Positions 12,971-29,929 of a stretch of 39,471 nucleotides of DNA are shown piece after piece; the stretch's first letter is position 1; the number at the start of each line of letters is the position of its first letter. Below the pieces are notes generated by a model. That model worked only from the letters and a program-made list of their open reading frames with translations. It did not search any database and had not been told where the DNA came from. The position numbers and the translations under genes are program-made. The DNA comes from Ruminococcus sp. (lineage in GTDB: Bacteria > Bacillota > Clostridia > Oscillospirales > Ruminococcaceae), in contig JAFWWU010000029.1 of the NCBI GenBank assembly GCA_017523285.1, positions 1 through 39,471 of the forward strand, written 5' to 3'.

Positions 12971-14191
12971 TTATAATATTCCGTTTCCGCCTGTTGCGAT
13001 ATCTGCATAGTGAGCAAGAATTGTTGATGCGTCAATAGCATCAATAGCGCCGTTGCGGTCTGTATCGAGAGATATTCTTACAGCAGGACTGAGATTTACT
13101 GTTTCTCCTGTTGAAATTGAAGCATAAGTTGCAAGTGCAAATGAAGCGTCGCCTGCATCTGCAAGATTGTCAGAATTACTATCGCCGATATTAACATTGA
13201 TAGCATTTAAAAATGCCTTGTGACCTGAAATCGGCATATCCTTATAATCGGATTCATATAATTCTACAACCTCATCAGCGTTTTCTGTCTTTTCATCAAA
13301 AGCTTTGATTACAGCAGCTGCAATTGCGTGATTACCGAGCTGATTAGGGTGAAAATCACGGTTTGTGCTTTTTGTTATATCTGTGTAGATATTTGAATAA
13401 CCGAATTTGTCCTCTGTGCCTTCTTCTGTGAATAAAGAATATACATCGGCAATTTTTACATTTTCGATTGCACCAAGAGCATCGCTGTTAAAATTCATTA
13501 TATTATTCTTGAAGAGATTTCTTATCATTGTATAACCGGTTTTATAATTTGAAGGACGTCCCTCAAGATAAGCTTCAAGGTCTTTTTCGCTCATAAGAAT
13601 AGGATTGTAAAGATTCTGATAAATTATTTTTGCATCAGGATTGATTGATTTAAGTTCAGCGTCAATCTGCTTCATTGTATCAACGCAGTTTTTTACTTCA
13701 TCCTTTAAAGCAGTGTTCATTTTTGTTATGAGTGACATAAGCATTTTATCTGCATCAGGTTCATCCTTTACAGATGATATAATTTCAAGAAGTGAATTAT
13801 ATGGATTTGTTCCGTTGTACTGGTCAGGATATTCTTCTTCAATTACAGCCATAAGAGTATCAATGAGGTCGTTTCCGCCTATAGATACAACAATTTCATT
13901 ATATCCCTTTATTGTACTTATGTATGCAGTATCATTTTTTAGTTTTGCAAGAAATTCATCTGATGTCATTCCTGATGTATGAATTGAAACTACTTTTTTT
14001 CCTAAATATTTTCCTACTGTTGTAACGTAAGGTGCATCCTGATCATATGCTGTACTTATTATACTGTCACCGAGGAAGAGTATGCTCTGATTTGTATAAA
14101 CTATCTGACCTGCATTTGCAGTTGTTATTGGTGAGAGTGCTGCAGCACCCATAACGATTGAAGTTAAAGCTGATATAATTTTCTTTTTCAT
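12971..14191 (-). CDS. Secreted SGNH/GDSL hydrolase with C-terminal dockerin
   Basis: A 406-residue exported esterase-like protein. A signal peptide of about 27 residues ends ITTANA. The SGNH domain has block I GDSI (nucleophile S43), block III GGND (N107), and block V DFHPN (D279, H281). A dockerin occupies about residues 332-406 with two calcium loops, GDSNSDNLADAGDAS and DTDRNGAIDAIDAS. The likely role is removing acyl groups from plant cell-wall polysaccharide within a cellulosome; the substrate is unknown. The dockerin sequence is clearly different from those of the two other dockerin proteins in the window. Ribosome site AAAGGAG. Confidence 0.88.
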   Translation of the reverse strand: MKKKIISALTSIVMGAAALSPITTANAGQIVYTNQSILFLGDSIISTAYDQDAPYVTTVGKYLGKKVVSIHTSGMTSDEFLAKLKNDTAYISTIKGYNEIVVSIGGNDLIDTLMAVIEEEYPDQYNGTNPYNSLLEIISSVKDEPDADKMLMSLITKMNTALKDEVKNCVDTMKQIDAELKSINPDAKIIYQNLYNPILMSEKDLEAYLEGRPSNYKTGYTMIRNLFKNNIMNFNSDALGAIENVKIADVYSLFTEEGTEDKFGYSNIYTDITKSTNRDFHPNQLGNHAIAAAVIKAFDEKTENADEVVELYESDYKDMPISGHKAFLNAINVNIGDSNSDNLADAGDASFALATYASISTGETVNLSPAVRISLDTDRNGAIDAIDASTILAHYADIATGGNGIL

Positions 14192-14508: not shown

Positions 14509-16245
14509 ATGAATATCAAAAAAATCACAGCAGCGTTTTTATCATTTGCTGTTCTTGCGGGGGGAATTACCTGCAATGAGATTTATCTCAAGAATGAATT
14601 TGCAGTTTCTGCGGCAGAAGAAAGTAACGAACAGCTTGAAGACAGCACAACTCTTAGTATAGTACAGGTTCCCGATAAGCTTGTATACAATATCGGAGAA
14701 GAGCTTGATCTTACAGGTGGTATGGCTTATGCAAAAGGTGTCTATAACGGAGAGAATTGGGATACATCCAATCAGCCGCTTGATTCAGAGCATTTTAAAA
14801 TAGATGCATCCGAATTTGATAATCAGGAATCTGGTACATATAGTATTTATGTAACAAATACATACGGTGTGCCTGAAACAAGAGTATTTGCAGTTAGAGT
14901 TGTATATACTGAAATTGAAGAAGAGCCTACTTTTTATATATCGCAAGCTCCTGTTAAGAGTAAGTATAGGATTGGTGAAGAACTTGATTTTACAGGCGGT
15001 ATGGTATATTCATTAGATATGGGTGACTGTGAACTGCCAATAGATCCGAAATATTTTAAAATAGATGCTTCCGAGTTTGATAATCAGAAAGTGGGAAGGT
15101 ATCGTATTTATGTTTTAGACCCGAATGTTTCAGATATGGAAAATGACATGAACTGGGATAGTTTTTCGGTCGAAGTTGCAGAAGGCGGAGGGAATCTTCA
15201 TTTATCCTCGCCTCCCGATAAGCTTGTTTACAATATCGGTGAAGAACTTGACCTTACAGGTGGCGTGGCTTATGCATCCGGAACTGATAATGGAGCTGTC
15301 TGGGATACATTCTGGCAGCCAATTGATTCGAAATACTTTTATGTAGACACTTCCGAGTTTAATAATCAGGTACCGGGTGTATATAATATTTATGTTTCAA
15401 TTAGCGACTGGATATGTGGCACAAAATCATTTGAGGTTAAGGTTATTGATAAAGAAAATAGTAATGGAACACTCATTAGATTAATTTCACCCGGTAGATT
15501 TATTTACGATATCGGCGAAGAACTTGACCTTACAGGTGGCGTGGCTCGTGCACAAGGATTTTATAATGGAGAAAGATGGGAGATATCCGAGCAGCTGCTT
15601 GATTCAGAATATTTTGATATAGATGCTTCTGAATTTAATAATCAGAAAGCGGGAGTTTATAATATTTATGTTACAAATACATATGGTGAACCTGTAACAG
15701 AATCATTTCAGGTTAAAGTTATAGGTAATGAAAATAATAACGATGGTATAGATTATGAAGATCGGAATGAGTCAAGTCTTTATATAAGAAAAGAACCTGA
15801 TAAGACTGTGTACAATATTGGCGAAGAACTTGACCTTACAGGTGGTGAAGCTGAGGCAGCCGGAATATATAACGGAGCATATTGGGATACAACTTCTTTT
15901 CAGCCGCTTGATTCGGAGCATTTTAAAATAGATGCTTCTGAATTTGATAATCAGAAAGAGGGAGTTTATACTATTTATGTTACAAATACATATGGTGAAC
16001 CTGTAACAGAATCATTTGAGGTAGAGGTTGTTGAAGTAATATATGGTGATGCAAATTGTGACGGCGTGGTTGACATTGCAGATATTGCAATTGTAAAATG
16101 CTACCTTATTAATAGTGAAAAATACAGTATGACATCAAAGGGATTGAAAAATGCCGATGTTCAGGGAAATGAAAACGGTATTAATGTAAATGACGCTATT
16201 GCTATTCAGAAATACGTTCTCGGAATGATAGATAGCTTTTCTTAA
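14509..16245 (+). CDS. Secreted five-repeat Ig-like protein with dockerin
   Basis: A 578-residue exported protein. After an N-terminal signal peptide come five tandem repeats of about 85-95 residues (starting near 47, 143, 233, 324 and 423). Each carries a YNIGEELDLTGG-like motif, a FKIDASEFDNQ-like motif and an IYVTNTYG-like strand, the pattern of bacterial Ig-like (Big_3-type) domains. The C-terminal dockerin begins GDANCDGVVDIADIAIVKCY and includes KNADVQ and DAIAIQKYVLGM. No catalytic domain is visible, so it may be a binding or spacer component of the cellulosome. Repeats 1, 4 and 5 are nearly identical over parts, which suggests recent duplication. Confidence 0.82.
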   Translation: MNIKKITAAFLSFAVLAGGITCNEIYLKNEFAVSAAEESNEQLEDSTTLSIVQVPDKLVYNIGEELDLTGGMAYAKGVYNGENWDTSNQPLDSEHFKIDASEFDNQESGTYSIYVTNTYGVPETRVFAVRVVYTEIEEEPTFYISQAPVKSKYRIGEELDFTGGMVYSLDMGDCELPIDPKYFKIDASEFDNQKVGRYRIYVLDPNVSDMENDMNWDSFSVEVAEGGGNLHLSSPPDKLVYNIGEELDLTGGVAYASGTDNGAVWDTFWQPIDSKYFYVDTSEFNNQVPGVYNIYVSISDWICGTKSFEVKVIDKENSNGTLIRLISPGRFIYDIGEELDLTGGVARAQGFYNGERWEISEQLLDSEYFDIDASEFNNQKAGVYNIYVTNTYGEPVTESFQVKVIGNENNNDGIDYEDRNESSLYIRKEPDKTVYNIGEELDLTGGEAEAAGIYNGAYWDTTSFQPLDSEHFKIDASEFDNQKEGVYTIYVTNTYGEPVTESFEVEVVEVIYGDANCDGVVDIADIAIVKCYLINSEKYSMTSKGLKNADVQGNENGINVNDAIAIQKYVLGMIDSFS

Positions 16246-16264: not shown

Positions 16265-16301
16265 AAAGCTGTCGGATTGAAAAAATCTGACAGCTTTTTT
16301 G
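16265..16301 (+). terminator. Terminator after the Ig-repeat dockerin gene
   Basis: AGCTGTC (16267-16273) pairs with GACAGCT (16289-16295) and is followed by a T-run. Confidence 0.85.
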
Positions 16302-16303
16302 TT

Positions 16304-16336
16304 AATTCCGATTAAAAATCGGAATTTTTTTATTTT
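16304..16336 (+). terminator. Second, tandem terminator
   Basis: AATTCCGATT (16304-16313) pairs perfectly with AATCGGAATT (16317-16326), followed by a T-rich tract. With the preceding terminator it insulates the phage cassette from upstream transcription. Confidence 0.75.
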
Positions 16337-16375
16337 TCTGATGTGAAAAATGCTGAATTGAAAAATTATTTTTTT

Positions 16376-16410
16376 CTTATGTTGACGTTTTCGTCAACAT
16401 AAGCTATGAT
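16376..16410 (+). promoter_or_regulatory. Phage-cassette promoter overlapped by a perfect inverted repeat (probable operator)
   Basis: A 12-bp perfect inverted repeat, CTTATGTTGACG (16376-16387) and CGTCAACATAAG (16392-16403) around TTTT, covers the -35 element TTGACG (16382-16387) and the spacer of a promoter whose -10 is TATGAT (16405-16410) at 17-base spacing. No T-run follows on either strand, so it is not a terminator. Its placement is that of a repressor operator. The repressor is not encoded in the cassette. Confidence 0.65.
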
Positions 16411-16461
16411 TTCTGCCCCTTTATGAACGGTGTTTGCCGAATATCATAAGGAGGTATAAAA

Positions 16462-16950
16462 ATGAATAATTCACTCAATGAAAAAAGACTTTTGTTCTGC
16501 TGTAATTATGTGAAGCTGGGAAATGTCAGAGAATCGGCAATAAAAGCAGGATTTTCTCCCGAAACAGCCTTGATGGAGGGGCTTGAATGTCTGAAAAGAG
16601 ATAAATTTCAGCGTGTTATCTCACAGCTTCGTGAAATTTCATCAGTAAATGGCGAAGGGATAATGTCAGGGCTTGAAAGACTTGCTTTCGGAAGCTGTAA
16701 CGATGCAGTTTATCTTGTTTTCTCGGAGGAGCTCCCTCCAGCCGATGTAATATCGGGGCTTGACCTTTTTAATGTTTCAGAGGTAAAGCGAGTAAAAGGC
16801 GGCGGTGTGGAAGTAAAGCTTTTTGACAGACAAAAGGCTCTTGAAAAACTGCTTGAATACCTGAATACTGTTGATAATTCTAAAAATGCGGCAAGTCTTT
16901 TACAGGCACTTGCAGGTTCGGATTCGGAGAGTGAAAACAATGGAAATTAA
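16462..16950 (+). CDS. Phage terminase small subunit-like protein
   Basis: A 162-residue protein with an N-terminal helix-turn-helix-like start (NVRESAIKAGFSPETALMEG) typical of small terminases that recognise viral DNA, and a helical C-terminal part (DRQKALEKLLEYL). It directly precedes and overlaps the large terminase, which strongly supports the call. Ribosome site AAGGAGG. First gene of the phage cassette. Confidence 0.8.
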   Translation: MNNSLNEKRLLFCCNYVKLGNVRESAIKAGFSPETALMEGLECLKRDKFQRVISQLREISSVNGEGIMSGLERLAFGSCNDAVYLVFSEELPPADVISGLDLFNVSEVKRVKGGGVEVKLFDRQKALEKLLEYLNTVDNSKNAASLLQALAGSDSESENNGN

Positions 16951-18184
16951 AAGCTTATCGGAAAAACAGAAAATTGCACTCAGATGGTGGAACAGAAATG
17001 AATACAGCGGCTATGACGCTATAATCTGTGATGGTGCGGTAAGAAGCGGAAAAACTCTTTCAATGTCAATTGCATTTGTAAGCTGGGCAATGACCTGCTT
17101 TGACGGCGGATATTTTGCAATGTGCGGAAAGACGATAACCTCGCTTAAAAGAAATGTTATAAATCCGCTTCTTTCAATGCTTGGTCAGCTCGGTTTTATG
17201 TGTATCGAAAAGGTAAGCAAGAATTACTTTGAAATCACTCTCTGCAACAGAGTAAACAGATTTTATATTTTCGGCGGCAAGGATGAAGGCTCGGCATCTC
17301 TTATTCAGGGAATAACTCTTTCAGGAGTTTTTCTTGATGAGGTTGCACTTATGCCTCGTTCTTTTGTAGAGCAGGCAATTGCAAGATGCTCTGTGCCGAA
17401 TTCAAAAATGTGGTTCAACTGTAACCCTGAGCATCCTTATCATTGGTTTTATCGTGAATGGATTAAAAAAGCCGAGGAGAAAAAGGCACTTTATGTTCAT
17501 TTTACTATGGATGATAATCCATCTCTCACCGATGAAGTAAAAGAGCGTTACAGCCGACTTTATTCGGGTGCATTCTATGACCGTTTTGTTCTTGGAAAAT
17601 GGACTGCTGTAAGCGGGGCAGTTTATCCTATGTTTGACAGCAGCAAGCATATTTTCGATGATGAGGTAATATGCGACAGATATGTTATTTCCTGTGATTA
17701 CGGTACAGTAAATCCATCGTCATTCGGTTTATGGGGAAGATGCAATGATAAATGGTACAGACTGAAGGAATATTATTACTCCTCGAAAAAAGAGGGTATA
17801 TCAAGGACCGATGAAGAGCATTATACTGCTCTTGAAGAGCTTGCGGGAGATTATCCGATTGAAAAGGTTATAGTAGACCCCTCTGCCGCAAGCTTTATCG
17901 AGTGTATCCACAGGCACGGAAAATTCAGAGCAGTAAGAGCTGATAATGACGTTGTTACGGGAATCCGCAGGGTATGCGACGCTTTGAAGCAGGAAAAGAT
18001 TTTATTCCATAAAAGCTGTAATGATATTCAGAGGGAGTTTTCTCTTTACTGCTGGAATGAAAAGGCAGGCGGAGATATTCCTGTCAAGGAAAATGATCAC
18101 GCTATGGATGATATGAGATATTTTGTTTCAGAAGTATTTAATGGTTGTGATGATTGCTTTTTCGTAGGCTCATTGGCAAGATAG
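16940..18184 (+). CDS. Phage terminase large subunit
   Basis: A 414-residue DNA-packaging motor of the PBSX/Terminase_3 type. Walker A is GAVRSGKT (32-39), Walker B is FLDE (131-134), and a coupling-type motif is MWFNCNPEHPYHWFY (about 157-171). The RNase-H-like nuclease contributes D253 in SCDYGTVNPSS, then VIVDPSAAS and DHAMDDMRYF. All key residues are present and the length is normal, so it appears functional. The ATG at 16940 overlaps the small subunit gene and begins MEIKSLSEKQKIA; an upstream in-frame ATG lies deep in the previous gene. Confidence 0.94.
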   Translation: MEIKSLSEKQKIALRWWNRNEYSGYDAIICDGAVRSGKTLSMSIAFVSWAMTCFDGGYFAMCGKTITSLKRNVINPLLSMLGQLGFMCIEKVSKNYFEITLCNRVNRFYIFGGKDEGSASLIQGITLSGVFLDEVALMPRSFVEQAIARCSVPNSKMWFNCNPEHPYHWFYREWIKKAEEKKALYVHFTMDDNPSLTDEVKERYSRLYSGAFYDRFVLGKWTAVSGAVYPMFDSSKHIFDDEVICDRYVISCDYGTVNPSSFGLWGRCNDKWYRLKEYYYSSKKEGISRTDEEHYTALEELAGDYPIEKVIVDPSAASFIECIHRHGKFRAVRADNDVVTGIRRVCDALKQEKILFHKSCNDIQREFSLYCWNEKAGGDIPVKENDHAMDDMRYFVSEVFNGCDDCFFVGSLAR

Positions 18185-18223
18185 TTACAAAAGACACCGT
18201 TCAATTTCTTATAAGGAGGAAAA

Positions 18224-19390
18224 ATGAGGCTTTTCGGAAATAAAAGAAACAGGCAGGCAAAGTATGAAGATTCTCCTGAAATTCATACAGCTTATCGTGA
18301 TGAAAAAGAGCTGTTTCCGCTTCCTTCGTGTATGGAAAAATACGAATATGAGCTTTATGACAGGCTGAGGGCAGCCGTGCCGATTATTGATGCGGCAATT
18401 ATGAAAATCGTAAGGCTTACAGGCGGATACAGGGTAATTTCATCGGACAGTACATTACAGAGCGAGCTTGAATATTTCCTTGAGAATATTCCTGTCGGCA
18501 TTTCGGGAAAATCAATTTATACATTTACAGATTGTTATCTTGATAATCTGCTTACATACGGAAGTGCCGCAGGAGAAATTATTGCTGACGGAAATTCCCG
18601 TAAAATTTCGGGATTGTATATCGGGAAAACGGATAAGCTTGAAGTATTAAGGGGAAAAAATCCGAATGACAGACGTTATCGCATAAGATGCGGTGACAGC
18701 TATCGCTATATCAAAAGACCTGACAGGATATTATTTACTTCTCTCGGTACAACTGAGGGAAAGGGTAAATCTCTGCTTTACGGACTCCCCTCTCTCAGCG
18801 GAATACTTCTTCGCATATATCAGTGTATCGGTCAGAATTTTGATCGTATCGGAAATGTACGCTATGCCGTTACATATAAGCCCTCATCTGACAGCGGAGA
18901 GAGAAGCTTTGCAAAAGAACGTGCAATGCGGATTGCAAAGGAATGGTCAGACGGTATGACTTCGGCAAAATACGGACAGGTAAAGGATTTTATTGCTGTC
19001 GGAGATGTAGATATAAAGGTTATCGGGGCGGAAAATCAGCTTTACAGCACAGAAATACCTGTCCGTCAGCTGCTTGAACAGCTTATTGCCAAGCTTTCAA
19101 TACCGCCGTTTCTGCTTGGACTGAACTGGTCGTCTACCGAGCGTATGTCGGCTCAGCAGGCGGATATTCTGACGTCAGAGCTTGAATATTACCGACGTCT
19201 TATGACTCCCGTTATATGTGCTGTCGGCAATGCGTATCTGCGTTCTGTCGGAAGTATGGCACAATGCAGTGTAGAGTGGTCAAACATTAATTTACAGGAT
19301 GAAAAAGAGCTTGCGGAAGCAAGACTTAAAAATGCACAGGCAAGTGAAATCGAATACAGGCTTGCGAATTATAAAATACAGGAGGATTAA
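18224..19390 (+). CDS. Phage portal protein
   Basis: A 388-residue protein of the portal family, which forms the ring through which DNA enters and leaves the capsid. Characteristic segments are LLTYGSAAGEII, KGKSLLYGLPSLSG and PPFLLGLNWSSTERMSAQQ followed by a tail region LEYYRRLMTPVI. It sits right after the terminase in the standard order. A strong AAGGAGG precedes the ATG. It is intact. Confidence 0.88.
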   Translation: MRLFGNKRNRQAKYEDSPEIHTAYRDEKELFPLPSCMEKYEYELYDRLRAAVPIIDAAIMKIVRLTGGYRVISSDSTLQSELEYFLENIPVGISGKSIYTFTDCYLDNLLTYGSAAGEIIADGNSRKISGLYIGKTDKLEVLRGKNPNDRRYRIRCGDSYRYIKRPDRILFTSLGTTEGKGKSLLYGLPSLSGILLRIYQCIGQNFDRIGNVRYAVTYKPSSDSGERSFAKERAMRIAKEWSDGMTSAKYGQVKDFIAVGDVDIKVIGAENQLYSTEIPVRQLLEQLIAKLSIPPFLLGLNWSSTERMSAQQADILTSELEYYRRLMTPVICAVGNAYLRSVGSMAQCSVEWSNINLQDEKELAEARLKNAQASEIEYRLANYKIQED

Positions 19391-19393
19391 TTT

Positions 19394-20356
19394 ATGTATA
19401 ACGAAATCAGACTTGAAAAAGGAATGTACAATCTCAGCGGAAAGAGCTTTTCAGAGGCACTTGAAGCACTCGACCCGTCATCAGCTTATGAAAATTCACC
19501 GCTTTCAAAGCTTGATGCTTATGAAAGACAGCTCAAACGTTTTGATATCAGAGTATCAGGTAAAAACTGCGACAAAGTAGAGAAATTCTTTGCAACAACA
19601 GAGAGCGCTGTGCTTTTCCCTGAATTTTTAAGACGCTCTTTGAAAAAGGGATTTGACGAGGCAATTCTAAGCGGAATTACTGCTGCAAAAAGTACCTGCG
19701 ACTGTAATACATATATCGGCTGTCTGCTTGATGACAATACTCCTTATACAACAACATCAGAAGGTAATCCGATGCCCGAATCATCAGTTACTGAAAATAC
19801 ATCTGCTGTAAATCTTCTCAAATACGGAAGAATTATAAATGCTTCTTATGAAGCTGTAAGACAGCAGCGACTTGATGTATTTGCGGTAATGCTCCGAGGT
19901 ATAGGAAGAAAGCTTGCAAACTCGGTTATGGCGGCGGTAGTTTCGGCTCTTACTGTCGATACAGAAGCTATTACTGCATCTGCACTTACATATAACGAGC
20001 TTACAAGGCTTTATGGTGAGTTTGACAGCTTTGAAATGAATACTGTTCTTGTTTCACCTGCGAAAGCGGCTGAAATATTTGCAATGTCGGCAATGCAGGA
20101 GGCTTCATTTGTATCATCAGACGGAAAGATATATCTTCCATTCGGTGCAGAGCTTTTAAAATCATGTGCCGTTGAAGATAATACGATAATCGGCTTCAAT
20201 AAGGATTTTGCTCTTGAGCTTATCACAAGCTCTGATTTTATTATGGAAACCGATAAGCTTATAAACCGTCAGCTTGACAGCATTGCTGTTTCGGTAAACT
20301 GCGGATTCAGAAAGCTTACTCCCGACGCAGTAAGAGTTCTTACAATTACAGGTTAA
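19394..20356 (+). CDS. Probable phage major capsid protein (HK97-type)
   Basis: A 320-residue protein without a signal peptide. A polar N-terminal part is followed by FATTESAVLFPEFLRRSLKKG, a mid part with GRIINASYEAVR, and MNTVLVSPAKAAEIF near 220, then a beta-rich end with SVNCGFRKLTPDAV. This order resembles HK97-fold capsid proteins, and the position after the portal supports it. It starts 4 bases after the portal stop with an AGGAGG site. Alternative: another head protein. Confidence 0.7.
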   Translation: MYNEIRLEKGMYNLSGKSFSEALEALDPSSAYENSPLSKLDAYERQLKRFDIRVSGKNCDKVEKFFATTESAVLFPEFLRRSLKKGFDEAILSGITAAKSTCDCNTYIGCLLDDNTPYTTTSEGNPMPESSVTENTSAVNLLKYGRIINASYEAVRQQRLDVFAVMLRGIGRKLANSVMAAVVSALTVDTEAITASALTYNELTRLYGEFDSFEMNTVLVSPAKAAEIFAMSAMQEASFVSSDGKIYLPFGAELLKSCAVEDNTIIGFNKDFALELITSSDFIMETDKLINRQLDSIAVSVNCGFRKLTPDAVRVLTITG

Positions 20357-20368
20357 TCGGAGGTTATT

Positions 20369-21199
20369 ATGGAGAATAATCAGCTTACAAAAATAAACAG
20401 CTTTACACGCAGGAGTTTTTCAGCCGATGAAGTTTATATCTTCGATGTTATTCTCTGTGATAATGAAATTGACAGAGATACAGAGCGATTTTCTCATAAA
20501 TCGCTCTGTACGCTGAAAAAGCTGTTTGTCGGCAAAACAGGTATTACCGACCATAATGCAAAATCTGAAAATCAGCTTGCAAGAATATTTGATACTGAGC
20601 TTGTTACGGATAATGAGCGTCTTACCTCTTACGGTGAGCCTTATGAATATCTTAAAGCTTCGGTCTATATGATTCGTACCGATGCAAACAAAGACCTTAT
20701 TGCTGAAATTGACGGAGGCATAAAAAAGGAAGTCAGTATATCGTGTTCATCGGGCAGACGTTTATGCTCGGTATGCGGCAAGGATAAATCAGAGCAGGGA
20801 TGTAATCACGTTAAGGGAAAAAGCTATGGCGGAAAGCTTTGTCATACTGTTTTAGAGCAGATAAATGACGCTTATGAATGGAGCTTTGTTGCTGTTCCTG
20901 CACAGGTTAATGCAGGAGTAACAAAGCATTTTTCGGAGCAGGAAAATTATAAGGTGCAGACTGCGGATATATTGTCAATCAGAAATGCCCGTGAGGATAT
21001 AAGCCGTGATATTGTAAGGCTTGCGTATTTCTGCGGTGGTGATGATTTTGCGAAATCAGCCGCAGGTCTTTCAGAATCAATGAGTATGGATGAGCTTATA
21101 GATTTCAAGAGAAAGCTTGAAAAAAGCAAGCCTAATGAATGTTTATCACAGCTTCTTGATGAATGTGATGAAGTCTGCGACGACTGCTTCAGTGTATAG
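20369..21199 (+). CDS. Prohead-protease-like phage protein with zinc-knuckle
   Basis: A 276-residue protein. The order DRDTERFSHKSL, GKTGITDHNA, KKEVSISCSSGRR and AYEWSFVAVPAQVNAGV recalls phage proteins annotated as prohead maturation proteases, with H in the TDHN motif and S in the SISCSS region as possible active residues. Between them is a metal-binding-like CSVCGKDKSEQGCNHV. It lies after the capsid gene, whereas prohead proteases usually lie between portal and capsid. Assignment is by resemblance only. Confidence 0.6.
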   Translation: MENNQLTKINSFTRRSFSADEVYIFDVILCDNEIDRDTERFSHKSLCTLKKLFVGKTGITDHNAKSENQLARIFDTELVTDNERLTSYGEPYEYLKASVYMIRTDANKDLIAEIDGGIKKEVSISCSSGRRLCSVCGKDKSEQGCNHVKGKSYGGKLCHTVLEQINDAYEWSFVAVPAQVNAGVTKHFSEQENYKVQTADILSIRNAREDISRDIVRLAYFCGGDDFAKSAAGLSESMSMDELIDFKRKLEKSKPNECLSQLLDECDEVCDDCFSV

Positions 21200-21209
21200 G
21201 GGGTAAATT

Positions 21210-21569
21210 ATGGATATAAACTCGGTAAAATCGCTTTTTACAATGATTTCGGGCGAGGAAGATTATGAAATATATCTTCCGATTATTATACTTTCAATGT
21301 CAGAAACAGAGCGGATGTTAAAAGCCGGAGCAGATAAAAACGATATACGTCTTGATTTTCTGTCAGCGGCAATAGCGAATTTCAGATATGTACAGCTTAA
21401 AGCTTCAAGGGACAGAACTCAGGCGGTTATGCTCGGAAATGCTCTTACCTCTGAAAATGAAAGCGGCACGCTAAGATATGCGGAAAAGCTTATGTACAGC
21501 TATATGGGAATGTGCTCAGAGCTTATAGATTGCGATGGGTTTGTATTTTCGGGCTTCGGGAAGGAGTAA
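21210..21569 (+). CDS. Phage head-tail connector-like small protein
   Basis: A 119-residue, mainly helical protein (DINSVKSLFTMISGEEDY, LDFLSAAIANFRYVQLKA). Size, helical nature and position after the capsid/protease genes fit an adaptor or connector that docks on the portal; sequence alone does not prove it. GGGGG ribosome-site region and tight spacing to neighbours show operon membership. Confidence 0.55.
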   Translation: MDINSVKSLFTMISGEEDYEIYLPIIILSMSETERMLKAGADKNDIRLDFLSAAIANFRYVQLKASRDRTQAVMLGNALTSENESGTLRYAEKLMYSYMGMCSELIDCDGFVFSGFGKE

Positions 21570-21575
21570 ACGGAT

Positions 21576-21989
21576 ATGCTGAATAAAATCCTATCCGATA
21601 TTATAGGCTGTATCAAAGGAAATGATATAAATTATGTTTTTTCAACATACGACGGAAAGAATGTTGAAAAAAAGCCGAATGATATAGTTATAACTGTCGG
21701 AATCGGAGAATTCAATATGAAAAAGCCTGTTTATTCAGATGAATACAGCTCTTATCCTTACAAAATTACCGCTGAGATAAGCATTACTGCTCCTTACTGG
21801 TGCAGTGCGGACAGGCTTTATGAGATTTTATGCAATGTTGTAATTGATAGGATTACAGCTTCGGATATGAATTTTGATAGTATAAAGAGTGTATCGGTGA
21901 AAAACGACTCAAAGCTGAAAAGAATAGTATATAATTCAGAGATTATGCTGTCAGGCATATACAGCATAAAAAGGGGTGAAAGCGTATGA
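21576..21989 (+). CDS. Phage head-tail joining/tail-terminator-like protein
   Basis: A 137-residue alpha/beta protein (VITVGIGEFNMKKPVYSDEY, ITAEISITAPYWCSADRLYE) with the size and beta-sheet character of tail-terminator or minor tail proteins. It begins 6 bases after the preceding gene, and its stop overlaps the next start (ATGA). Function inferred mostly from position. Confidence 0.5.
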   Translation: MLNKILSDIIGCIKGNDINYVFSTYDGKNVEKKPNDIVITVGIGEFNMKKPVYSDEYSSYPYKITAEISITAPYWCSADRLYEILCNVVIDRITASDMNFDSIKSVSVKNDSKLKRIVYNSEIMLSGIYSIKRGESV

Positions 21990-22372
21990 ATACTTTTTGT
22001 GAAAATTCTGTTCCCGTTGCAATAGGTGAATTTACTTTGTATACTGAGAAAATCCGTATTTCATGCTTGAAGGATATAGCCGAAGATACTGCTCTCAGCG
22101 GAAATATCGTATATACAAAGGATATACCGAAAAGCACAAGGATTATGCTTTCTGGCAGAATAATTCCCGAAAAAGCGCTTAGCTTTGCTGTATTTGCCGA
22201 TAGTGCGATAAGAAACGGAGATATTATGAATATCTTGTATAAGAGTCTTTCGCTCAGATTATGCAGAGTGGTTTCGTGTATATGTGAAAACTGCGATGAC
22301 GGCTTTTATAATGTCAAGCTTATGCTTATTACTCCGAATCAGATTGAAGAGGCGGCTTTGAATGGAGAGTAG
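21986..22372 (+). CDS. Phage-cassette protein of unknown function
   Basis: A 128-residue, beta-rich protein. The N-terminal part includes VPVAIGEFTLYTEKIRIS and a mid part IMLSGRIIPEKALSFA. It overlaps its neighbours by 4 and 11 bases, so it is certainly in the same operon. No family recognised; a tail or baseplate component is possible. Confidence 0.5.
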   Translation: MNTFCENSVPVAIGEFTLYTEKIRISCLKDIAEDTALSGNIVYTKDIPKSTRIMLSGRIIPEKALSFAVFADSAIRNGDIMNILYKSLSLRLCRVVSCICENCDDGFYNVKLMLITPNQIEEAALNGE

Positions 22373-23288
22373 AATCATATTAAAGATAGCTGACGGTACA
22401 GAGATAGTTTTTGAAGATATACTCAGCTTTACATTTGAAAAGAATGCATATATGCCATATACAAGTTTTTCTGCTGTTGCCTGTTCGGAAATCGACAGCA
22501 TTGAAAGCGTGAGCGAGGTTAGTTTTATTATCGGAGGAAAACGCATTCATCACGGTATCTGTGACACTCTTGATATTTATACGGAAAACGGAAAAGGCTT
22601 CTGCCGCATTGTTTCAAAGGGATTTACCTCGCTTTTATGCAGAAATCAGCTTGAAGAAGGACTGAAAACAAATATTTCGTTCAATGCGCTTATGGAAAGC
22701 TTCTATACGCTTCCTTTTGTTGAGCATGAAGATAATTCCGATACAAGCAATTATATTTATGTAAAGCCGAATTCTGTTATGTGGGACGGAGTTGTAAATC
22801 TTGCGTATAAGCTGTACGGGCGTTATCCTTATATAAGAGGGACAAATAATGTAAGAATTACGCCGATTGAGCTTCCTGTCGGATTTGTTTACAGGGATAA
22901 TGCGATTCTTAAAAAAGGCATACGGATAAATACAAGCCGTATAATAAGTGATTATCACATGGCGGATATAAACGGAAGCTACGGAGAATTCGAGCTTGTA
23001 AATACTGAAGCACATCAGCTTAATATTATAAGGAATAATTTTTTCGAGCTTGACAAGCAGTTTCTGTATTCGCCGCAGGAAGCTCTTATTTTTCGTGACC
23101 GCTTCAATACAAGAGAAAAGCTTTCACACTATTTTGTATACAGCGGCTATAACGGAGAGGATATAACCGATATTGTTACATTTTCTGATATTATGGAAAA
23201 GAAAATCACAGGAGTAAAAGTAATCGGAAACAGTAACGGGATTTTCACCGAAATATCGGTAAATAATGATTATTTCAACAGAGAGTAG
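22362..23288 (+). CDS. Baseplate hub / late-control-gene-D-like phage protein
   Basis: A 308-residue beta-rich protein, beginning MESRIILKIADGTEIVFED, with domains resembling the XkdQ/gpD hub: a first barrel, DTLDIYTENGKGFCRIVSKG, a helical insertion (FNALMESFYTLPF), then NAILKKGIRINTSR. Hub proteins sit at the tail tip and help penetration. Its TAG stop is part of a GTAG-headed REP palindrome. It is the last gene; no tape measure, tail tube or lysis gene follows. Confidence 0.55.
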   Translation: MESRIILKIADGTEIVFEDILSFTFEKNAYMPYTSFSAVACSEIDSIESVSEVSFIIGGKRIHHGICDTLDIYTENGKGFCRIVSKGFTSLLCRNQLEEGLKTNISFNALMESFYTLPFVEHEDNSDTSNYIYVKPNSVMWDGVVNLAYKLYGRYPYIRGTNNVRITPIELPVGFVYRDNAILKKGIRINTSRIISDYHMADINGSYGEFELVNTEAHQLNIIRNNFFELDKQFLYSPQEALIFRDRFNTREKLSHYFVYSGYNGEDITDIVTFSDIMEKKITGVKVIGNSNGIFTEISVNNDYFNRE

Positions 23289-23340: not shown

Positions 23341-23367
23341 AGCTGAGGATACCGCCTCAGCTTTTTT
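23341..23367 (+). terminator. Terminator of the phage cassette
   Basis: AGCTGAGG (23341-23348) pairs perfectly with CCTCAGCT (23355-23362), followed by a run of T. Confidence 0.9.
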
Positions 23368-27212: not shown

Positions 27213-29831
27213 TTAAACAGGAAGCTCATCAATCATTTTAAGAGCATATTTCTGAATTGCGAGAGCGTCCTGAGTGTTAAGTCCGCTTCCCGAATTCTGT
27301 ACATCGGCATTTTTTACACCGTCAGCAGAAATCTTGTATTTGTTGCTGTTGATGAGATAACACTTAATAAGAACAACGTCAGCTACGTCAACTGCACCGT
27401 CGCAGTTTGCGTCACCGTATTTGATGTTGCTGTCAGCAGGCTTTGTTGTAGTCTGCTGTGGCTTTGTAGTTGTCGGAGGTGTAACAGTACCGTCTGAAAG
27501 CTTACCGTAAACGATACCACAGCCTACTGTTGACATATACATTGTGCCAAATTCATTCATATCACCAACGATGAAGTTACCGTTACCTGTACCGCCGTAA
27601 AGCTTGTCAGAGTTGATGCATACCCATGTAGTACCGCCGTCCTGTGAGCGATAAATGCCCTCAGGGTCAGTTTCCTTTGGCTTACCATACATATAAAGAG
27701 TATTTACCTCTCCTGCCTTTTCAGGTGCACCGTAGCCTACTGTCTTGCAGTAGAATACATTCTTGTCTGTAACCTTTGTTCCGCCGTCAGTAACATTGTA
27801 AAGACCATACCAGCCGGCAGCTAAGATAAGATTATCTTCACCGAGGTAAGCAATTCTGCCTGCACTGTCACACTGGTCGTACATAGCAATGTCAGTACCT
27901 GTGAATTTCTTACCGTAGTCTGTACTTACATAAAGTGTATAATGAGCGTCCTCAAATTCAGGCTCTGTCTTTGAGTAATGCCATGATGAATTGAAATATG
28001 TAGCGTATGCGTAAACAACATTTGGCTTTTCAGGCTCAACAAGCAAATAAGTTGTCTTAGAGCCGTAAGCTGAATCAATACCGCTTACAGTTGACCATGT
28101 TGCACCGAAATCGTCTGTGTATGAAACGTTTCCGTCGTCCTTGCCTGATTTGAAGATACGGTATGTATCCTCGTCAATCTGAGTGATAGCAGCCTTGCCA
28201 CCGAATGAGCAGTTTTTCATTTCTGTCCATGTAGTGCCGCCGTCTGTTGAATAGAAACCGCCTGCAACGTCATTCTGAGTGTCAGCTATACGAACCATAA
28301 CATCAGGATTCTGAGGACAATAAGCAATTGCACCTGTTGTACCCATATTTGGTGTGTGCTGGATACCGATTTCGTCAACGGCAACGTGACGGAAGCCGTC
28401 GTAGTCACCGATTGCAGAGAATTCATCGCCGCCCGGAACACTTATCATATCAAGACATACAACTTCTTCGATGCCGTCAGGGTGGAAGTAGTAAACAGGA
28501 AGCTCATCCCATACGTTATCACACGCAAATACACCATTACCTGATGTAAGGAGCATTCTGTCGCTGTCACGAGGGTCGAGAACAACCGCACCGCACCAGT
28601 GGATAGCCTTGTTTACAATCCAGTCATAGCCTGCTGACTGGAGATAATCAGCACAGAGAGGACCACCCCAGCTCTTTTCATTACCCGGAGTAATTGATTC
28701 CCATGTTGCGCCGCCATCGTGTGAACGATAGAACTGGTCGCCCCAGCATACCTTATCGTCTTCCCATGCGCCCTTGTACCAGAGCTGTGAGCTCCATACA
28801 CCACAAGTTGTAGCAATAAGCTCCTGTGAATTGTCAGGAAGACTTACACAGCCGCCGAAGCTGTTTCCTGTCGGAGAAATATCTGTTACCTTGTCGTTTT
28901 TGATATCATACTTGTAAAGACCGCCGCCTGTACCTGCAAAAGCAAGTCCGCCTACATAAGCGATAAGGAGATTTCCGTCAGCGTCTTTATTTATTCTTGA
29001 AGGGAAAGCATCTGTCGGGAGGTCTGCACTGAGTGGCTTCCAGTTATCCTTGCCTACATCTGCAACATAAACGTTAGCACCGATTGTATTATCTGAAACA
29101 CCTACGAAAACCTTGCCGTCTTCGATTGCGATAGTGCCGATACCGTTACAGTTAGCGTAGTCAGTACCAACTGTTGTCTTTTCGATAGTATCAGTCCATG
29201 TCGGCCACTTGATTTCATTTGTGAAAAGTCCGAGTTCATCGAAGCTTTCAACGAATGTCCATGTTTCGCCTGCGTCTGTACTCATGATAAGACCGTCTGT
29301 ATCGCCGCCGCAGTAGATAATATTCGGATTATCAGGGTCAATTGCAATTGATTCACCGCACTGTCTGCCGTAACCGTTACCGTGAACCTTGATTAAATCT
29401 GTGACATCATATTGAGTAAATGTCTTACCGCCGTCTGTTGTTTTGAAGATTGCGGTTCTTTCACTACTGAAATAAGCACAGCCACAAAGGAAATAAGCGG
29501 TATTATCATCAGTAGGGTCGATACACATAGCGTCAACGCTGAGGAAGCCTCTGTCGGTATCGTTGATAAAGCTCATAAGCTGAACCCATTCCATTTTGTC
29601 ATAGTCGTATCTGTAAGCACCGCCTACGTCAGTACGGGCATACATAGTTTCCTTACCTGTGACAATTCCCGAAACGAAGCCGCCTCCGCCTATTCGGAGC
29701 GTACCCCATTCCATTGAAATGTTTGAATCTGCCGCCTCTGCAGATTCAGGCTCTTCGGGTGACATAGCGAAACCCGTAACAGCCATGCAAAGCGCTGTTA
29801 TTGCCGAAACAGCTCTTTTTCTTAACTTCAT
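27213..29831 (-). CDS. Xyloglucanase, glycoside hydrolase family 74, with dockerin
   Basis: An 872-residue exported enzyme that cuts the xyloglucan backbone. A signal peptide is in the first 33 residues. The two seven-bladed propellers of GH74 show repeated Asp-box motifs (KTTDGGKTF, MSTDAGETW, YRSHDGGATW). Catalytic candidates are D68 in ARTDVGGAYRY and D476 in AIGDYDGFRH. A Pro-Thr linker (PPTTTKPQQTTTKP) leads to a dockerin starting GDANCDGAVDVADVVLIKCY, closely like that of the Ig-repeat protein. I chose the ATG at 29829-29831, 9 bases after AAAGGAG; a longer frame upstream lacks both a signal peptide and a ribosome site. Confidence 0.92.
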   Translation of the reverse strand: MKLRKRAVSAITALCMAVTGFAMSPEEPESAEAADSNISMEWGTLRIGGGGFVSGIVTGKETMYARTDVGGAYRYDYDKMEWVQLMSFINDTDRGFLSVDAMCIDPTDDNTAYFLCGCAYFSSERTAIFKTTDGGKTFTQYDVTDLIKVHGNGYGRQCGESIAIDPDNPNIIYCGGDTDGLIMSTDAGETWTFVESFDELGLFTNEIKWPTWTDTIEKTTVGTDYANCNGIGTIAIEDGKVFVGVSDNTIGANVYVADVGKDNWKPLSADLPTDAFPSRINKDADGNLLIAYVGGLAFAGTGGGLYKYDIKNDKVTDISPTGNSFGGCVSLPDNSQELIATTCGVWSSQLWYKGAWEDDKVCWGDQFYRSHDGGATWESITPGNEKSWGGPLCADYLQSAGYDWIVNKAIHWCGAVVLDPRDSDRMLLTSGNGVFACDNVWDELPVYYFHPDGIEEVVCLDMISVPGGDEFSAIGDYDGFRHVAVDEIGIQHTPNMGTTGAIAYCPQNPDVMVRIADTQNDVAGGFYSTDGGTTWTEMKNCSFGGKAAITQIDEDTYRIFKSGKDDGNVSYTDDFGATWSTVSGIDSAYGSKTTYLLVEPEKPNVVYAYATYFNSSWHYSKTEPEFEDAHYTLYVSTDYGKKFTGTDIAMYDQCDSAGRIAYLGEDNLILAAGWYGLYNVTDGGTKVTDKNVFYCKTVGYGAPEKAGEVNTLYMYGKPKETDPEGIYRSQDGGTTWVCINSDKLYGGTGNGNFIVGDMNEFGTMYMSTVGCGIVYGKLSDGTVTPPTTTKPQQTTTKPADSNIKYGDANCDGAVDVADVVLIKCYLINSNKYKISADGVKNADVQNSGSGLNTQDALAIQKYALKMIDELPV

Positions 29832-29929
29832 TCCAAACAACTCCTTTTTGCATCTGCAATACAGCCTAAGTAAAGCGATGCATAATATTTCTTTGATAAA
29901 GCGCGGGCACACTTTATCTCAGTATATAC

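Follow-up and report, generated by a model that had tools for sequence, protein, structure and literature searches.

What is a bacterium doing with an undamaged, incomplete set of phage morphogenesis genes? The question is raised by a 6.8-kb cassette of nine genes (A to I; positions 16462-23288, forward strand) in a 39,471-nt stretch of DNA from Ruminococcus sp., hereafter the window, which is the entire contig JAFWWU010000029.1 of a 2.84-Mb genome in 174 contigs. An initial annotation of this stretch had proposed that the cassette is kept by selection for a gene-transfer-agent-like, bacteriocin-like or satellite-packaging role. Our results suggest, with a probability of about 0.7, that the cassette and a set of dispersed operons form a gene-transfer-agent-like (GTA-like) system, in which the cassette probably serves to carry bacterial DNA from cell to cell and not to make virus; of the three proposed roles, the GTA-like one fits best. 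Two aspects are new. The cassette has almost no tail and belongs to a vertically inherited family that reaches into five or more families of a single order, and fibre and lysis operons at unlinked loci come to light through a covarying promoter-like element that they share with it.

A head and packaging cassette with almost no tail

All nine open reading frames (ORFs) are intact and co-oriented, with no pseudogene among them, as initially described. The overlaps then reported are confined to A/B, G/H and H/I, the other junctions being gaps of 3-39 nt, and the GC content of 36-42% indeed falls within the range of the surroundings. Pfam and PHROGs matches bear out the terminase, portal and capsid assignments: A is the terminase small subunit (16462-16950; 162 aa; Terminase_2, E 9.6e-16; phrog_2606 and phrog_51), B the large subunit (16940-18184; 414 aa; Terminase_6N, 4.8e-14; phrog_2, 1.4e-51; read from the ATG at 16940, a TTG at 16871 giving a longer ORF), C the portal protein (18224-19390; 388 aa; phrog_30703, 1e-129) and D the major capsid protein (19394-20356; 320 aa; Phage_capsid_4, 2.8e-13; phrog_3922, 2.4e-66). 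E (20369-21199; 276 aa) is tentatively protease-like or scaffold-like; the alignment looks protease-like by eye and has a conserved Cys/His motif, and the only match is to phrog_16951 (3.9e-94), a phage family of unknown function. The motif has the form CxxC...C.H...C, resembles a zinc site and also occurs in more distant relatives.

None of the proteins F to I has a direct Pfam or PHROGs match at E ≤ 1. F (21210-21569; 119 aa) is a probable head-tail connector by its position and its alignment with the related loci L052 and L055, and the gene at the same position in a third relative, L053, matches the head-tail adaptor phrog_541 (E 0.007). Position and weak profile matches to counterparts in a fourth, L054, tentatively mark G (21576-21989; 137 aa; E 0.006, probability 6%) as a tail-terminator-like connector and H (21986-22372; 128 aa; E 0.004, probability 8%) as a small tail-tube-like protein, which may be related to a tail tube; alignments of G and H gave weak, scattered matches against PHROGs. 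I (22362-23288; 308 aa) is read as baseplate-hub-like because the L054 protein to which it aligns (hhalign E 8e-5, probability 60%) matches the baseplate hub phrog_177 (3.5e-10). Against Pfam, the alignment of I reached only chance level (best E 0.089; one of its 18 members matched a Mu GpP-like hub domain at E 0.14), and PDB profile searches with I, H and E returned nothing convincing. The connectors and the hub of the initial annotation thus stand in indirect form, and its statement that a tail tube is missing holds for direct matches and is qualified by H.

No integrase, repressor, replication, tape-measure or lysis gene is recognised in the cassette (nine ORFs against Pfam and PHROGs; neighbours by eye), in keeping with the earlier description; nor does ORF reading with Pfam and PHROGs reveal a mobility gene, or Pfam and PHROGs a tail sheath or LysM protein. 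The gene set does not fit an active temperate prophage, which would combine integrase, repressor and replication genes with a complete tail, nor a tailocin, which would have no capsid, portal or terminase.

Relatives with longer tails may show where the present layout comes from. L053 starts with the terminase small and large subunits, portal, E, a small head protein, capsid and connector genes, continues with a tail sheath (phrog_279, 4.9e-48), a tube-like gene (by eye; phrog_27038, of unknown function) and small genes, and ends with a 183-aa gene at the tape-measure position, a LysM/hub-adaptor protein and, near the contig end, a match to I. In L054, the corresponding region has no sheath-sized or tape-measure gene and retains the hub, a gene with weak similarity to the tube of L053 (E 0.003) and, by eye, a LysM-like gene. 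In the window cassette, F is followed by no more than the short genes G, H and I. L053, L054 and the window could represent successive steps of tail loss. Baseplate J was matched in only one of the 19 genomes searched, and that one is not the genome of the window.

Conservation and descent with the host

The portal gene was found in 92 of 100 congeneric genomes (54 of the 55 good ones), in each as a single copy and in none with a stop codon. It extends to 136 of 298 genomes of the family (127 of 265 good ones; 53 of 107 genera) and, in the order, to 101 of 395 genomes (101 of 392 good ones; 52 of 172 genera) from five families (f1, f6, f12, f13 and f22). Among GTDB species genomes there are at least 561 portal relatives, the best 80 of which include R. 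flavefaciens Y1, YAD2003, ATCC 19208 and FD-1 and no record named R. callidus or Faecalibacterium. Gene order was compared across 105 loci (20 congeneric stretches, five phage records and 80 named contigs, some contigs being counted twice). The nine-gene order is complete in 71 of them and co-linear elsewhere as far as genes were detected, incomplete loci reaching a contig end or containing a diverged gene unseen by tblastn. The only rearrangement is a swap that places E before D, between portal and capsid, at 16 loci (four phage-collection records and 12 others). Flanks differ between congeners: the RNase Y gene (rny) that adjoins the window cassette was not found in the available flanks of 20 congeneric loci (two of these flanks end ~0.5 kb or less from the cassette), and no phage-like family was seen by eye among the 40 commonest flank families of relatives.

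Across ten close pairs, two of which compare the same two strains, and the pair formed by the window and L032, in which H and I are saturated, dN/dS (NG86) ranges from 0.000 to 0.35 wherever both genes were found and the value could be computed. In most pairs, the terminase, portal and capsid genes rank with those under the tightest constraint. Portal and rny distances in 29 genomes are correlated (Mantel r 0.79; none of 5000 permutations as high), and the two trees have 17 of 26 splits in common, compared with at most 4 in 2000 label permutations. The cassette is inherited with its host and is under purifying selection. It is not a prophage remnant, because the portal is a single-copy gene in most genomes of the genus and recurs across the order, dN/dS is low and the portal tree is host-like. 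The view that selection maintains the cassette has therefore gained ground: it is neither confined to one strain nor under the relaxed selection that would have spoken against this view.

Relatives catalogued as viral also point to bacterial chromosomes. Five of the six matches in phage collections are unannotated scaffolds from human faeces, the sixth being Microcystis phage MACPNOA1, the one annotated phage, whose portal is 26% identical. The largest, MT835508.1 (L052; deposited as uncultured phage), is flanked by rpoA, SecY, an Rnf-type subunit and anaerobic ribonucleotide reductase (Pfam) and is therefore bacterial chromosome; MT835769.1 (L053; human faeces, likewise deposited as uncultured phage) carries thymidylate synthase and other host genes by eye. 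IMG/VR holds 304 relatives, the best 80 on contigs of median 6.0 kb and at most 30.4 kb, with bacterial flanks by eye in all four stretches inspected. Close relatives from the phage records and IMG/VR thus sit among bacterial genes in 6 of 6 cases checked.

A shared element at unlinked fibre and lysis operons

Alignment of upstream regions revealed a conserved promoter-like element of ~104 nt in front of the cassette (16338-16441, forward strand; model R1). It contains a perfect dyad with 12-bp arms and a 4-nt centre (16376-16403), which the hairpin scan also lists as a third upstream hairpin, and a TTATGAACGG box (16421-16430) that may be a -10 region. Across the genus, the element comprises by eye a TTGTGCA..TACAAA box in many rows, an A/T tract, the dyad and a TTATGAACGG-type box ~30-60 nt before gene A; if TTATGA is the -10 box, the dyad centre would lie near -43. 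A sigma-70-like match at 16382-16410 was rejected as a conserved promoter, relatives not having kept it by eye. Of 92 distinct upstream regions, 42 do not show the box pattern, many of them from distant relatives or with a misplaced gene start; the pattern gave 50 usable stretches, 38 of which were aligned, three from more distant relatives. Rows were chosen by the TTATGAACGG box, so that its conservation is partly a product of this choice; the dyad was not selected for. It covaries across relatives: 83.2% of dyad cells are paired in the 38-row alignment versus 64.3% after shuffling, 51 cells show two-sided changes versus 15, and slid controls are 32-47% paired. Similar dyads were seen by eye 5' of some cassettes in more distant relatives. 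Dyads are also more alike within than between genomes (mean 7.7 versus 9.2 differences of 22; 5 of 601 permutations as low), a test that covered 54 of 58 sites, with four weak dyads dropped and some rows out of register.

The element lies upstream of the cassette in all 17 congeneric genomes scanned, 12 of which are in the training set of R1. These genomes contain 107 R1 matches at E ≤ 1, including 90 extra sites, 40 of which were examined, mostly picked by score and drawn from 14 genomes; genes downstream were labelled by eye unless a Pfam match is given. A phage-like gene follows directly at 19 of the 40, of fibre or lysis type at 12 and of prophage type (replication, portal or similar) at seven (L218, L223, L224, L237, L239, L240 and L241). 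The initial annotation had proposed a search for unlinked tail and lysis genes, and lysis and fibre genes emerged through this element. In the genome of the window, one site (C148) precedes DUF6291 (4.7e-19), Phage_holin_4_1 (6.8e-16) and Amidase_3 (3.4e-24) with SPOR, and another (C158) an XhlA-like gene (4e-4, below the cut-off), a 274-aa fibre-like protein with no Pfam match and a short ORF. The holin under the element is the one PF05105 (Phage_holin_4_1) protein of this genome, and two further genomes (G026 and G030) have the same arrangement.

A small fibre-operon protein, alpha, provides an independent route to such loci. Aligned from six loci and then sought by sequence, it occurs at 63 places in 47 of 71 genomes (45 of 68 good ones). 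R1 matches at 29 of 30 alpha loci, one place each from 30 genomes and in most cases the one with the best score; when the six loci that defined alpha are set aside, it matches at 23 of 24. The site lies within ~150 nt upstream in 26 of the 29 and ~500-800 nt upstream in the others. The exception, G063, has a weaker look-alike by eye, nine R1 matches in its genome and a partly deleted cassette, and was dropped as a case of a missing element. Genes downstream of alpha are mostly fibre-like (by eye). Three genomes (G378, G043 and G084) have a gene for a 161-196-aa protein and one for an M15-type peptidase (with a Pfam match in G084 alone) after alpha, and in G084 XhlA-like and holin-like genes stand before it (by eye). 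Through the shared element, the lysis and fibre-like genes at other loci may be under common control with the cassette.

The copies that no phage-like gene follows are L199 and L201-L208 (G008), L211-L213 (G050), L231-L234 (G048), L215, L216 and L242 (G087), and L228 and L229 (G035). At L206, a host-type gene lies 117 nt downstream. The copies in G008 read TTATAGAGGG or similar in place of TTATGAACGG.

A probable gene-transfer-agent-like system and its alternatives

Three properties of the cassette agree with a GTA: phage-derived packaging and head genes (Pfam and PHROGs), no replication or integration genes of its own (nine ORFs scanned; neighbours and flank families by eye), and inheritance with the host under purifying selection. 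In the system that we envision, the window cassette would be the head and packaging operon. A putative dimeric regulator probably works through the dyad, placed at about -43 in a promoter with the TTATGAACGG box as its -10 region, and would switch on three unlinked operons jointly, for head and packaging, for a receptor-binding fibre and for holin-endolysin lysis. The terminase would then fill a small capsid with chromosomal DNA, presumably taken at random and probably shorter than the 6.8-kb cassette, the cell would lyse, and a very short tail of hub and fibre would deliver the DNA to kin.

Several observations weigh against this scheme. At 21 of the 40 examined extra sites there is no phage-like gene downstream, and those viewed with their neighbours mostly face a convergent gene; because 7 of the 19 phage-gene sites precede prophage-type genes, the element is not GTA-specific, and its regulator may also serve prophages in these hosts. 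By R1 score, the extra sites of this genome are weak (E 3e-3 for C148 and 1.7e-4 for C158), and their support is gene content, not score. A clear element occurs at 3 of 30 holin loci (fetched of 31 matches in 17 genomes), with one more match at E 0.97. The endolysin of this genome has homologues in only 3 of 85 genomes, this one included, and was accordingly rejected as a conserved GTA marker; sequence search did not find alpha in this genome. An ArpU-type activator was rejected as the regulator, with no match above the cut-off in 18 genomes. In 29 genomes from other genera that have no cassette, R1 matched four times, with no E-value under 0.2; this control is confounded and lenient, the model having been trained almost wholly on this genus. 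Finally, internal portal stops affect 6 of 136 portal-bearing genomes in the family search and 8 of 101 in the order search, and one congener, G063 (L433, contig C1), has lost portal to G, with A intact, half of B and the end of H followed by I, which could be a deletion or an assembly join.

These last losses, and the partial gene set itself, are what one would expect of a slowly decaying prophage kept by chance, with genes intact since the loss was recent. A single copy over five families, dN/dS far below 1 and a host-like tree largely refute this explanation, which is scarcely tenable. More consequential is the possibility of a killing particle. PBSX of Bacillus subtilis is a defective phage particle with host DNA and a contractile layout, which the L053-type relative resembles. 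A PBSX-like cassette would make capsids that carry host DNA and kill relatives with no DNA delivery. The sheath of L053, a homologous cassette from another bacterium, agrees with such a role, and the authors of the Faecalibacterium study discussed below leave killing open for their host (PMC12946183). The contractile set of sheath, tube, tape measure and baseplate J is not seen in the window, save perhaps for a relative of the tube in H: neither sheath, tape measure nor LysM protein is recognised in the cassette, baseplate J was not found in this genome, and terminase, portal and capsid belong to the most constrained genes in most pairs, so that a PBSX-like particle appears improbable. A tailocin-like role, the bacteriocin option of the initial annotation, is likewise unlikely: selection maintains the terminase, portal and capsid genes, and 18 of the 19 genomes searched gave no match to baseplate J.

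The third option, a satellite or helper device that serves co-resident prophages of the same promoter type by supplying or stealing small capsids, could account for the seven of 40 element sites that precede prophage-type genes (by eye); a cassette that has no visible mobility gene and is inherited with the host makes it very improbable. A different kind of alternative touches control only and is compatible with the GTA-like reading: the upstream hairpin could act as an RNA leader, for example in antitermination, rather than as a protein-binding dyad. Strong two-sided covariation would suit an RNA, but one pair is a C-A mismatch in 12 of the 38 rows and one-sided G-U steps are few, which fits an imperfect DNA dyad better, and Rfam gives no match at the gathering threshold anywhere in the window; we consider an RNA leader rather unlikely, though less so than the alternatives above. 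Beyond the GTA-like reading of the cassette itself, a wider scenario can be entertained, which as a whole we would sooner doubt than accept: an ancient GTA family across a Clostridia order may have lost a contractile tail stepwise, from a full one in L053-type cassettes through a partial one in the L054 type to almost none in Ruminococcus, and be run by a promoter code whose dyad co-evolves in each genome, the code tying head, fibre and lysis operons together, being used by prophages as well, and having spread to solitary sites, where it could give rise to non-coding transcripts or flag the start of packaging.

GTAs are well described in few lineages only. Those of Alphaproteobacteria (RcGTA and CcGTA) are, like the window cassette, host-inherited phage-derived clusters, and they have the coordinated control that is predicted for the window system. 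They differ in their phage ancestor and in their longer clusters with tape measure and full tail genes, and they too have dispersed loci. CcGTA is described as controlled by activation and anti-termination (PMC11150451). Dispersed GTA loci are stated generally in PMC12946183.

Closer to the present host, Borodovich et al. 2026 (PMC12946183) describe that Ruminococcaceae, R. callidus among them, enclose short, random pieces of host DNA in faecal particles, with GTA-like packaging of 4.6-kb fragments in R. callidus, and that Faecalibacterium prausnitzii, placed in the Ruminococcaceae, carries the GTA genes FpGTA I and II, reported in 2026 as the first GTA from the human gut microbiome. As with the window cassette, FpGTA has a small single-operon head and packaging cluster (small and large terminase subunits, portal, scaffold and capsid) with no replication genes. 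It packages short DNA fragments, as is predicted for the window system; a second, distant operon holds baseplate, fibre and holin/endolysin, the same two-part logic as in the window system. By description alone, FpGTA I is larger (10.5 kb and ten ORFs versus 6.8 kb and nine), and the text considered mentions no shared promoter element of the kind seen in Ruminococcus (PMC12946183). We found no published Ruminococcus GTA locus in the open-licence literature. The cassette family is common to at least five families of one order, and a system of this kind might explain the as yet unassigned ~4.6-kb packaging in R. callidus (PMC12946183). The cassette offers a locus at which the GTA-like packaging of DNA described for a Ruminococcus species can be put to the test. 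The element is a sequence signature for unlinked lysis and fibre genes, which are usually hard to find because they change fast, and gene flow among rumen and gut fibre degraders could become directly testable.

The surroundings of the cassette agree with the transcriptional boundaries first described: two terminator-like hairpins stand behind the upstream gene (16265-16297 and 16304-16326, forward strand) and one 3' of the cassette (23341-23362, forward strand). Three nearby ORFs of the window (12971-14191, 14509-16245 and 27213-29912) have dockerin-like C-termini by eye, as in cellulosome-type secreted proteins.

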